From contig NZ_JAMDHK010000004.1 in assembly GCF_024721115.1 (NCBI RefSeq), forward strand, positions 147,862 through 211,861: a DNA stretch of 64,000 nucleotides, written 5' to 3'. The notes under the pieces are model-generated. The model did no database searches, was not told the origin of the DNA, and saw only the letters and a list, made by a program, of their open reading frames with translations. Below, one piece after another: positions 59,734-63,179 of this stretch; position 1 is the stretch's first letter; every line of letters starts with the position of its first letter. Origin of the DNA: Salipiger pentaromativorans. Its GTDB lineage: Bacteria > Pseudomonadota > Alphaproteobacteria > Rhodobacterales > Rhodobacteraceae. A program made the position numbers and the translations under genes.

Positions 59734-60318
59734 TTAAGCCAGCAGCGACGCGAAGGCGTCGAGATGGTAACCGGAGCCGGTCAGGAGGTGATCGTAGGTC
59801 TCGGCCAGCGGCGTGCCCTCCACCTCTTCGATGGCCTCGGCGATGTCGGTCATGTCCTTGGTCTCGATCGCCAGCCCAACCTCGAGCGCGTCGGTCACCG
59901 AGACGGAGCCGCTGGCGAGCAGCGTGTCGTACATCTCCTGCAACTCGTCGTTGAGAAAGGTGCCTGCGGGTTCGAGAAGGAAGACATCCACGTCGAGGCC
60001 GATGTTTTCGGCCTGCGAGATCAGCGCATCGAAATGGCGGTCCTCGGAGGTTGCGATCTGATCGAAGATCTTCAGACCGTAGAGGTCGTAGAACGCCTCA
60101 TAGATGTCCCCCGCGAGCTTTTCCTCTTCGATCATGTAGTAGAGCTCTGCGATGGCCGCGTCGTCGTAAAGCACCGTCGATGTCACGTTCTCGGTGTCGC
60201 CGCTTCCCGCCGGGACGGTGGGGATCTCGTTCCCGTCACCGGCTGCGCCGAACCCGTACTGCACCTCTTGCGATATGGCCCCCGCATGCCCCTTGGGTCC
60301 GAATGACAATTGTCTCAT
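59734..60318 (-). CDS. DUF2202 ferritin-like protein
   Basis: A 194-residue acidic protein of the DUF2202 family. The predicted four-helix core has the metal-ligand-like pairs EEEKLAGDIYEAF and SEDRHFDALISQ, then a second half with ELQEMYDTLLASG and DIAEAIEEVEG, as in ferritin-like di-iron folds. There is no clear signal peptide. AGAGG precedes the ATG and a TATAAT lies about 40 bases upstream. Iron or redox-stress handling is a plausible but unproven role. Confidence 0.82.
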   Translation of the reverse strand: MRQLSFGPKGHAGAISQEVQYGFGAAGDGNEIPTVPAGSGDTENVTSTVLYDDAAIAELYYMIEEEKLAGDIYEAFYDLYGLKIFDQIATSEDRHFDALISQAENIGLDVDVFLLEPAGTFLNDELQEMYDTLLASGSVSVTDALEVGLAIETKDMTDIAEAIEEVEGTPLAETYDHLLTGSGYHLDAFASLLA

Positions 60319-60478: not shown

Positions 60479-60558
60479 AAAAAAAGGCCGGGCGAAAAGC
60501 CCGGCCAGGTCCAACAGGGAGGTGCATGTGATGACCCGCACATGCGACGGGAACTCTT
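60479..60558 (-). ncRNA. Predicted FNR-controlled small RNA, about 80 nt
   Basis: Read on the minus strand, a hairpin GCATGTG-loop-CACATGC (60545-60524) is followed by a single-stranded stretch containing CCTCCC (60522-60517), able to pair with ribosome binding sites. Then comes a terminator stem GGCCGGGC/GCCCGGCC (60506-60486) with seven T residues. A 14-base FNR-type box centred 41.5 bases before the proposed start gives class-II geometry. All elements of a trans-acting sRNA are present. Transcription is inferred; the 5' end is estimated from the box. Confidence 0.6.
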
Positions 60559-60592
60559 GGGTTGTATCTAAAGATACCGTTTCGATACTACT

Positions 60593-60606
60593 TTGATCTG
60601 CGTCAA
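60593..60606. promoter_or_regulatory. FNR/CRP-type box
   Basis: TTGATCTGCGTCAA matches the FNR/FnrL consensus TTGAT-N4-ATCAA at nine of ten specified positions (a G replaces one A). On the minus strand it is 35 bases before the proposed sRNA start. A perfect palindrome GTATCT-TT-AGATAC (60577-60564, minus strand) overlaps the expected -10 region. Confidence 0.6.
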
Positions 60607-60670: not shown

Positions 60671-61357
60671 TCATGCGACTAGGCGGTATCCTCCGGATTC
60701 GGTGACAAGAATGCGGGCATTCGAGGGGTCGGGCTCGATCTTTTGCCGCAAACGATAGATATGCGTCTCGAGCGTGTGAGTCGTCACCCCTGCGTTGTAT
60801 CCCCAGACCTCGTGCAGCAGCACGTCGCGCGCCACGACCCCTTCGGTCGCGCGGTAGAGGAACTTGAGGATATTGGTTTCCTTCTCGGTCAGGCGGATTT
60901 TGCGGTCGTCTTCGGTGATGAGCAGTTTCATCGCCGGTTTGAACGTATAAGGCCCGACCGAGAACACCGCATCCTCGGATTGCTCGTGCTGACGAAGCTG
61001 GGCGCGGATCCGGGCGAGCAGCACCGGGAACTTGAAGGGCTTGGTGACATAGTCGTTGGCGCCCGCGTCGAGCCCGAGGATCGTGTCGGCATCGGTGTCG
61101 TGGCCGGTGAGCATGATGATCGGCGCCTTGACGCCCTGCTTGCGCATCAGCCGGCAAAGCTCGCGCCCGTCGGTGTCGGGCAGGCCGACGTCGAGGATGA
61201 TCAGCTCGTAATTCTGTTCCTTGACGCGGGACATCGCCGAGGCGCCGTTTTCCGCTTCGAAGACCTCGAAATCCTCGGTCATCACCAATTGCTCGGCCAG
61301 CGCTTCGCGCAGGTCGTCATCGTCATCCACCAGAAGGATATTCTTGATCTGAGCCAT
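60671..61357 (-). CDS. OmpR/PhoB family response regulator
   Basis: A 228-residue regulator: receiver with phospho-acceptor D56 in LDVGLPDTDG and an acidic pocket DDDDD (residues 11-15), then a winged-helix domain (TLETHIYRLRQKIEPD). No kinase gene is adjacent. The sequence resembles the essential orphan envelope regulator CenR of alphaproteobacteria, but I cannot confirm this. Divergent from ribA, with a 22-bp-spaced direct repeat in the shared promoter region. Confidence 0.9.
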   Translation of the reverse strand: MAQIKNILLVDDDDDLREALAEQLVMTEDFEVFEAENGASAMSRVKEQNYELIILDVGLPDTDGRELCRLMRKQGVKAPIIMLTGHDTDADTILGLDAGANDYVTKPFKFPVLLARIRAQLRQHEQSEDAVFSVGPYTFKPAMKLLITEDDRKIRLTEKETNILKFLYRATEGVVARDVLLHEVWGYNAGVTTHTLETHIYRLRQKIEPDPSNARILVTESGGYRLVA

Positions 61358-61512: not shown

Positions 61513-62607
61513 ATGCCCCTTGCACCGAACCTGATGGAAATCCTTGCCCGTGCCCGTGCCGATCTGCGCATGGGGGTGCCGGTGGTGCTGATGGGGGCGG
61601 ATGGCGCCGGGGTGCTGGTGCTGGCCGCCGAAACCGCGTCGGAAGAGCGGCTGGCGCTGCTGCGGCAGGCCGAGGGCGAGACCGAGCTGGTTCTGACGGC
61701 ACGGCGGGCCGAGACGCTCAAGGCGCGGGTCTATGACGGCGATCTGGCGCGGGTGGCGCTACCGGCGGATGCGGGGATTTCCTGGGTGCGCAATGTGTCG
61801 GACCCGGCGGACGATCTGTCGATGCCGATGAAGGGCCCGCTGAAGGAACGGCGCGGCGGCGATGTGGCGCTGCACCGGCTGGCGATCACCCTGGCGAAAT
61901 CCGCCCGGCTGCTGCCGGCGGCGCTGGTGCTGCCCGTCGCGGCGCCGCGCGGTGTGGCGTTGAACGAGAATCTGACGCTGGTCGATGGCGTCGCGGCGGC
62001 GCCCTCGATGCTGATGCTGGCCAATCTCGATCATGTGGTGTCGGCCCGCGTGCCGCTCGAGACGGCCGAGAACGCGCGGTTGCATATCTTCCGCCCGGCG
62101 GACGGATCGGAAGAGCATTACGCGGTCGAGGTGGGCCGTCCGGACCGCCATGCGCCGGTGCTGGCGCGGCTGCATTCGGCCTGTTTCACCGGCGATGTCC
62201 TGGGGTCGTTGAAATGCGATTGCGGTCCGCAGCTTCACGCGGCGCTGGCGCGCATGGGTGAAGAGGGGGCGGGGGTGCTGCTCTATCTCAACCAGGAAGG
62301 TCGGGGCATCGGGCTTGCTAACAAGATGCGCGCCTATGCGTTGCAGGATCAGGGCTTCGACACGGTCGAGGCCAACCACCGGCTGGGCTTCGAGGACGAC
62401 GAGCGCGATTTCCGGCTGGGCGCCGAGATCCTGCGCAAGATGGGCTTTACCTCGGTGCGGCTGCTGACCAACAACCCCAACAAGCTCGCGATGATGGAGC
62501 GGTGCGGTATCGCCGTGGCGGAACGGGTGCCGCTGAAGGTCGGCAAGACCGCGTTCAACGCGCATTACCTTGCCACCAAGGCGGCGAAATCGGGGCATCT
62601 TCTGTAG
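61513..62607 (+). CDS. ribA: GTP cyclohydrolase II with degenerate N-terminal RibB-like domain
   Basis: A 364-residue protein. The C-terminal half is a complete RibA domain: zinc cysteines C224, C235 and C237 (SACFTGDVLGSLKCDCG), then QEGRGIGL (261-268). It opens GTP for riboflavin synthesis. The first 160 residues align in outline with 3,4-dihydroxybutanone-phosphate synthase (GVPVVLMGADGAGVLVLAAE), but the acidic metal-binding motif of RibB is missing, so that domain is probably inactive. The stop codon lies inside an intergenic repeat. Confidence 0.92.
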   Translation: MPLAPNLMEILARARADLRMGVPVVLMGADGAGVLVLAAETASEERLALLRQAEGETELVLTARRAETLKARVYDGDLARVALPADAGISWVRNVSDPADDLSMPMKGPLKERRGGDVALHRLAITLAKSARLLPAALVLPVAAPRGVALNENLTLVDGVAAAPSMLMLANLDHVVSARVPLETAENARLHIFRPADGSEEHYAVEVGRPDRHAPVLARLHSACFTGDVLGSLKCDCGPQLHAALARMGEEGAGVLLYLNQEGRGIGLANKMRAYALQDQGFDTVEANHRLGFEDDERDFRLGAEILRKMGFTSVRLLTNNPNKLAMMERCGIAVAERVPLKVGKTAFNAHYLATKAAKSGHLL

Positions 62608-62668
62608 GGTGGGCAATCTGCCCACCCTGTTTTTCGACAAGGAACGGTGGGCAGATTGCCCACCCTAC
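62604..62668. repeat. Inverted pair of identical 23-base hairpin repeats
   Basis: Positions 62604-62626 and 62646-62668 are exact reverse complements, each itself containing a GTGGGCA-type stem. The left copy supplies the TAG stop of ribA (62605-62607). The right copy abuts the ribosome binding site (CGGAGGT) of the next gene. Same family as 10311 and 25114-25370. Confidence 0.85.
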
Positions 62669-62678
62669 GGAGGTTCTG

Positions 62679-63179
62679 ATGGAGATGGTTCTGACGCCTT
62701 TGGGCCTGCGCTTCTCAGGGCAGCTCTGGCCCTGTTCGGTGGGGCGGGGCGGCATCCGGAGCGACAAGCGCGAAGGCGACGGGGCGACGCCGGTCGGCAT
62801 ACACCGGATCGTCGGCACGCTTTATCGTCCCGACCGTGTGGCGCGGCCCGCGCCCTGGGCCGATCCGATCCTGCCGGGCGATCTGTGGTCGGACGATGCC
62901 GGAGATCCCGCCTATAACACGATGGTGCGGGCGCCCTACGCGCCCAGCCACGAGCGGATGCGCCGCGCCGATCCGCTTTACGACATCGTGCTGCTGACCG
63001 ACTGGAACTGGCCCCTCGCCGAGCCGGGGCACGGCTCGGCGATCTTTCTGCACCAGTGGCGGCGGCCGGGCTTTCCCACCGAGGGCTGCATCGCCTTCCG
63101 CCGCGATCATCTGCGCCAGATCGCGGCGCTGGCTGTCCCCGGCACCCGGCTCATCGTGCCGGAGACCATGGCGGGGTAA
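62679..63179 (+). CDS. L,D-transpeptidase (YkuD family)
   Basis: A 166-residue catalytic domain with the family signature FLHQWRRPGFPTEGCIAF (H125, catalytic C137). There is no signal peptide or membrane helix, so either it is a cytoplasmic-like short YkuD protein, common in alphaproteobacteria, or its export signal is non-classical. Expected chemistry is 3-3 cross-linking of peptidoglycan or attachment of proteins to it. CGGAGGT lies before ATG 62679, immediately after the inverted repeats. Confidence 0.87.
   Translation: MEMVLTPLGLRFSGQLWPCSVGRGGIRSDKREGDGATPVGIHRIVGTLYRPDRVARPAPWADPILPGDLWSDDAGDPAYNTMVRAPYAPSHERMRRADPLYDIVLLTDWNWPLAEPGHGSAIFLHQWRRPGFPTEGCIAFRRDHLRQIAALAVPGTRLIVPETMAG

Follow-up and report, generated by a model that had tools for sequence, protein, structure and literature searches.

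On the minus strand of a 64,000-nucleotide (nt) stretch of the Salipiger pentaromativorans genome (contig NZ_JAMDHK010000004.1; hereafter the window), in the 3′ region of an ompR-type gene, lies a copy of the small RNA (sRNA) SorX, preceded by a putative box for the regulator FnrL (Table 1). The Rfam family SorX (RF02784) matches over its full model, positions 1-73, with 93.1 bits against a gathering threshold of 46.6 (E = 6e-22, cmscan) and is the sole Rfam match at gathering threshold in the window. An earlier note on this DNA, made from the letters alone, had proposed an unannotated, FNR-controlled sRNA here. An sRNA with its own terminator is indeed present, but it is not new: the assignment to SorX, a known family, rules out an unknown sRNA. 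E. coli FnrS is an FNR-activated sRNA whose control logic, an FNR box before a short terminated sRNA, is similar; unlike FnrS, the RNA here draws no FnrS match from Rfam anywhere in the window, which rules out a relative of FnrS and agrees with the note's remark that the likeness comes without a sequence relation.

Across 57 SorX sequences, all 7 pairs of the 5′ hairpin have changed on both sides, and 97.5% of cells are paired; pairing over the whole structure is 94.2%, dropping to at most 42.5% once the partners are slid; the fold z-score of the region is -2.70. SorX identity and a covarying hairpin are established on these sequence grounds. The seven-base-pair hairpin and the terminator of eight G-C pairs followed by seven T residues lie where the earlier note had drawn them, and so does the CCTCCC (60517-60522) that it had described as exposed: the CCTCCCTGTTGGA core is unpaired in the centroid fold and partly paired in the minimum-energy fold, and its linker columns in alignment A1 are for the most part invariant or nearly so. 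With SorY (RF02651) the RNA has the CCTCCCTGTTGGAC linker and the terminator type in common, but it reaches 34.5 bits where the cut-off of that family is 111, and we rejected this identity. A weaker second SorX match in the same genome (G000:C22:295456-295524, L002; 46.9 bits), with an identical CCTCCCTGTTGGA core, is possibly the SorY counterpart. SorY is reported to have its own promoter (PMC6238624) and to act on takP, a transporter mRNA.

The box picked out by the earlier note is the only match to TTGAY-N4-RTCAA in the 64 kb; with 0.10 matches expected and at least one in 9 of 100 shuffles, it is, taken alone, only mildly unusual and weak evidence. The plus-strand 14-mer is the FnrL recognition sequence listed before ccpA and speB1 of R. 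capsulatus (PMC4634722, table 1), and the genome encodes an FnrL-type protein of 248 amino acids, whose N-terminus carries a cysteine cluster and which shares 79% identity with its best match in a genome (G051) taken as R. sphaeroides 2.4.1 by its SorX coordinate (2598225 versus 2598224 as published). A transcription start 41.5 bases from the box centre, as the note had predicted, falls by arithmetic at 60558 and sets T-A (60570/60569) at -12/-11. The sequence before SorX thus has the form of a class II FNR promoter, a box centred at -41.5 with a -10 element, from which the start site is predicted.

Table 1. Features of the SorX locus and its neighbours, in window coordinates
Feature	Position	Strand	Basis or remark
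SorX sRNA (RF02784)	60480-60552	-	cmscan, full length
5′ hairpin, 7 bp (arms 60539-60545 and 60524-60530)	60524-60545	-	covariation
Anti-Shine-Dalgarno core CCTCCCTGTTGGA, predicted single-stranded	60510-60522	-	fold and alignment A1
Intrinsic terminator, 8 G-C pairs (60486-60506) and seven T	60479-60506	-	
FNR/FnrL box, TTGATCTGCGTCAA (plus strand) = TTGACGCAGATCAA (minus strand)	60593-60606	-	consensus match
-10-like element TAGATA, within CTTTAGATA	60565-60570	-	-12 to -7 if the start is 60558
Predicted transcription start, base A	60558	-	box centre minus 41.5 (arithmetic)
OmpR-type response regulator gene, upstream; SorX in its 3′ region	60671-61357	-	Pfam Response_reg and Trans_reg_C
DUF2202 gene, downstream (context only)	59734-60318	-	Pfam PF09968, 100.1 bits

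Boxes recur before SorX in relatives. Of 394 genomes in the family, 311 have a SorX match above the cut-off. We examined 270 loci, one per genome, leaving out two at contig ends (G028, G119) and apparently also genomes in which no match rose above 57.3 bits. In 13 loci ompR does not end within 700 nt upstream; these were then set apart, and the counts refer to the 257 with an ompR end at most 700 nt upstream. The 150 nt upstream of SorX contain the motif TTGA-N6-TCAA at 64 of the 257, with 59 of these boxes centred from -67.5 to -41.5; four neighbouring 150-nt control segments contain it at 0, 0, 4 and 1 of 257. Three of the five control matches stand just before a second SorX-type copy (L018, L153, L211). 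Over the first 130 loci the motif is found in 45, and shuffles gave a mean of 0.3 and a maximum of 5. A weight matrix, with a 99% control threshold and the centre confined to -60 to -38, finds the box at 77 of 257 loci, the window's included (58 of the 77 with the full TTGA-N6-TCAA), a count that is partly in-sample because the matrix was trained on 58 boxes from the same loci. Among 20 later loci outside the training, which were high-scoring matches of new genomes and not a random draw, 8 are boxed. A scan of named genomes gave 42 stretches with box and SorX, including ones in Salipiger abyssi and in Marivita and Roseovarius strains; as its pattern requires both the box and the spacing, it carries no information on frequency. 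Box, CCTCCC and terminator, whose conservation the earlier note had made a point of, all recur by sequence in the relatives looked at.

Box centres, counted from the first position of the SorX model, are most often at -41.5 (17 loci) and next at -42.5 (11). In the window's group, where SorX begins TCCCG, the box lies at -47.5 or -48.5 in 28 of 42, which would move the start some six or seven bases upstream. When loci are aligned on the box, T-A stands at -12/-11 in 60 of 77 boxed loci, and no other offset up to 8 bases either way has it in more than 10; of the 180 unboxed loci, 7 have it at the equivalent position before SorX. The standard deviation of the box-to-SorX distance is 3.9 nt (limited by the -60 to -38 range) and that of the ompR-stop-to-box distance 38.9 nt, so the box goes with SorX and not with ompR. 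Mapped on the ompR tree, presence of the box takes 45 changes, where 200 label shuffles took 66.4 on average and never fewer than 59; by this measure the box is partly inherited, yet often gained or lost. The box, a -10 locked to it and their recurrence in relatives are thereby established as features of the sequence.

We consider it quite probable that SorX at this locus has a class II FnrL-dependent promoter of its own, to which read-through from ompR may add. As oxygen falls, FnrL would bind the box, centred 41.5 bp before the start, and bring RNA polymerase to the -10-like TAGATA; a transcript starting at about 60558 and ending at the terminator would be about 80 nt long, and its exposed CCTCCCTGTTGGA would pair with the ribosome binding sites of target mRNAs. 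A terminator scan of the minus strand between the ompR stop and SorX found no terminator-like site, and supply by read-through is possible for that reason: transcription from the ompR-type gene followed by RNase E cleavage, the published 3′ untranslated region (3′ UTR) route, could yield the same RNA. We infer that FnrL occupies the box here, that transcription begins at the predicted start, that the effect is activation rather than repression and that the core base-pairs with targets. FNR control, as the earlier note had it, finds support in the promoter architecture recurrent in relatives and is for this organism still a prediction.

Several observations weigh against an FnrL-driven SorX. 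At the locus, TAGATA agrees with TATAAT at just 3 of 6 positions, a poor -10, and a sigma-70 scan gave no promoter. Among ompR-linked relatives, a promoter-range box was not found in 180 of 257 (about 70%), which presumably rely on 3′ UTR processing. Nine of the 13 loci with a second SorX-type copy, described below, lack the pattern of an unboxed proximal and a boxed distal copy at promoter distance. In R. sphaeroides, SorX is reported to derive from the 3′ UTR of ompR-1, RSP_0847 (PMC8625941, PMC6238624), and to be an RpoHI/HII-dependent ompR cotranscript induced by singlet oxygen and superoxide (PMC3320616); an unknown nuclease is described as trimming it to a 116-nt precursor, which RNase E shortens to 75 nt (PMC6238624, PMC9438474). 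The nearest box to SorX in that genome, a degenerate one overlapping the ompR stop codon, is TTGCGTGAGATCAA (2598148-2598161); TATAAA stands at class II distance from it, with a start predicted at 2598196. The reported 5′ ends, 2598182 and 2598224, are read as processing products (PMC6238624) and do not coincide with that prediction. We also considered the pre-SorX end at 2598182 as an FnrL-dependent class II start and rejected it, as the box centre would then be -27.5.

These biogenesis papers, the 180 relatives without the box and the missing terminator-like site between ompR and SorX would suit an alternative in which SorX here comes solely from RNase E processing of ompR mRNA and the FNR box is there by chance or has some other function. 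We hold this to be unlikely, since box and -10 are locked together and to the SorX start, not to ompR, and since most well-scoring SorX copies away from ompR have a box. Fourteen loci, the 13 set apart and one of the 20 later ones, have no ompR end within 700-900 nt upstream, and 6 of them score at least 66 bits, a line set after the results were seen; five of these six are boxed (L068, L095, L148, L197, L338) and L131 is not. The box has the full consensus at L148 and L197, and at L068, L095 and L338 it starts TTGCG and ends ATCAA, a form given also for the hemN FnrL site of R. sphaeroides (PMC4634722). L095 has A-T instead of T-A at -12/-11; L068 and L338 belong to the window's own genus. 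The eight weaker detached loci (62.7 bits or less) have no box and may be SorY-like.

It is improbable, too, that the box is read not by FnrL but by another protein of the CRP/FNR family with the same target (CrpK, RedB or the NNR/DNR type). Such a reader is conceivable in that the genome has a second protein with the Crp signature (PF00325) and that the RedB and FnrL regulons are described as overlapping in R. capsulatus. Against it stands FnrL chromatin immunoprecipitation sequencing (ChIP-seq) of 2014 in R. sphaeroides, in which RSs2461, the older name of SorX (PMC5036791), is one of two sRNAs with an FnrL site in the putative promoter (PMC4263372). The study adds that the regulatory influence of the site could not be established and that RSs2461 has no similarity to FnrS (PMC4263372). 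Co-occurrence also argues for FnrL: with presence defined as a match at E 1e-40 (47 genomes lack one in total, 20 named and 27 table gaps), all 12 near-complete (at least 90%) genomes without FnrL are unboxed, and boxed loci are found in 1 of 4 less complete genomes without FnrL and in 76 of 241 with it. Fisher's test for the 12 gives p = 0.02, with relatedness ignored.

Very doubtful is a role of bound FnrL in repression or blocking, whether by halting ompR read-through or by turning SorX off in anoxia, when singlet oxygen is not formed: the SorX induction described so far is by oxidative stress and a few relatives (5/257) have the box around -11, over the start, but the commonest geometry, -41.5 with a -10 at matching distance, is the class II FNR promoter geometry of activation.

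At 13 loci that passed our filter, a second SorX-type copy lies 105 to 645 nt from the first (L018, L076, L091, L093, L110, L116, L117, L148, L153, L162, L209, L211, L262). At L148, L153, L162 and L262 a full box stands before the distal copy, at -48.5, -43.5, -48.5 and -41.5, respectively, and the ompR-proximal copy is unboxed; at L018 and L211 the box of the distal copy is near -11, and at the other seven loci neither copy is boxed above threshold. A box at roughly -10 to -12 relative to the start of SorX was seen at the second copies of L018 and L211 and at the first copies of L115 and five other loci, a placement that would fit repression or a shifted start.

For Rhodobacteraceae as a whole we lean towards two alternating origins of SorX, release from the ompR 3′ UTR by RNase E and transcription from an autonomous FnrL-activated gene, with the FNR promoter repeatedly gained or lost and with some genomes keeping the two modes on separate copies. 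On that account SorX would be an alphaproteobacterial counterpart of FnrS, joining an oxygen switch to a stress switch. SorX is a standard example of a 3′ UTR-derived sRNA outside enterobacteria, and a review gives it a section of its own (PMC9438474). Should numerous relatives use a recurrent FNR promoter for SorX, these loci would offer a natural series for asking how an sRNA shifts between mRNA by-product and independent gene; the promoter could account for the ChIP-seq site whose effect stayed open in 2014, and SorX would be tied to oxygen besides singlet-oxygen stress.

The window's RNA resembles R. sphaeroides SorX in sequence and structure family, in its place after an OmpR-type gene and in hairpin, CCTCCCTGTTGGA linker and terminator. 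Unlike the published R. sphaeroides SorX, cut from ompR mRNA under RpoHI/HII, it has a predicted class II FNR-type promoter directly before it. The SorX family and the FnrL ChIP-seq site at RSs2461 in R. sphaeroides were already known; what is new is the recurrent candidate class II FNR-type promoter, with its box-locked -10, before SorX at 77 of 257 loci. The open-licence literature on SorX with FnrL or Fnr, within its available text, yielded no SorX promoter of FnrL type.

SorX has been described as regulating a polyamine transporter, and repression of potA belongs to the traits of the family. Searching the organism's own genome for the complement of CCTCCCTGTTGGA with at most one mismatch gave six places, exact just at SorX and at the second SorX-family match. 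One of the four one-mismatch places, TCCATCAGGGAGG (L327, 13-mer 1501-1513), stands 7 nt upstream of the ATG that opens what is predicted to be a TRAP-type permease operon, in which a predicted small permease is followed by a large one. This start is a lead as a possible SorX target; it was singled out by the search itself, and the name TRAP-type comes from reading the sequence, a 66-amino-acid fragment of the predicted permease protein having given no Pfam match. Duplex energies of SorX were also taken at the starts of six potA-family matches, values that are without a proper background and at start codons that are unverified.

The earlier note had placed the sRNA next to a ferritin-like gene, and the DUF2202 gene is there downstream, but its presence is probably incidental: the nearest of the 42 named loci, in Salipiger abyssi, is 87% identical over 2.1 kb, and the similarity stops at the SorX terminator. 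The box is unlikely to drive the DUF2202 gene because the terminator lies between them, as the note had argued. Elsewhere in the window, at about 62555-62700, translations of both strands contain near-identical runs (GWAICPP...GGQIAHPTE), which point to a probable inverted repeat there.
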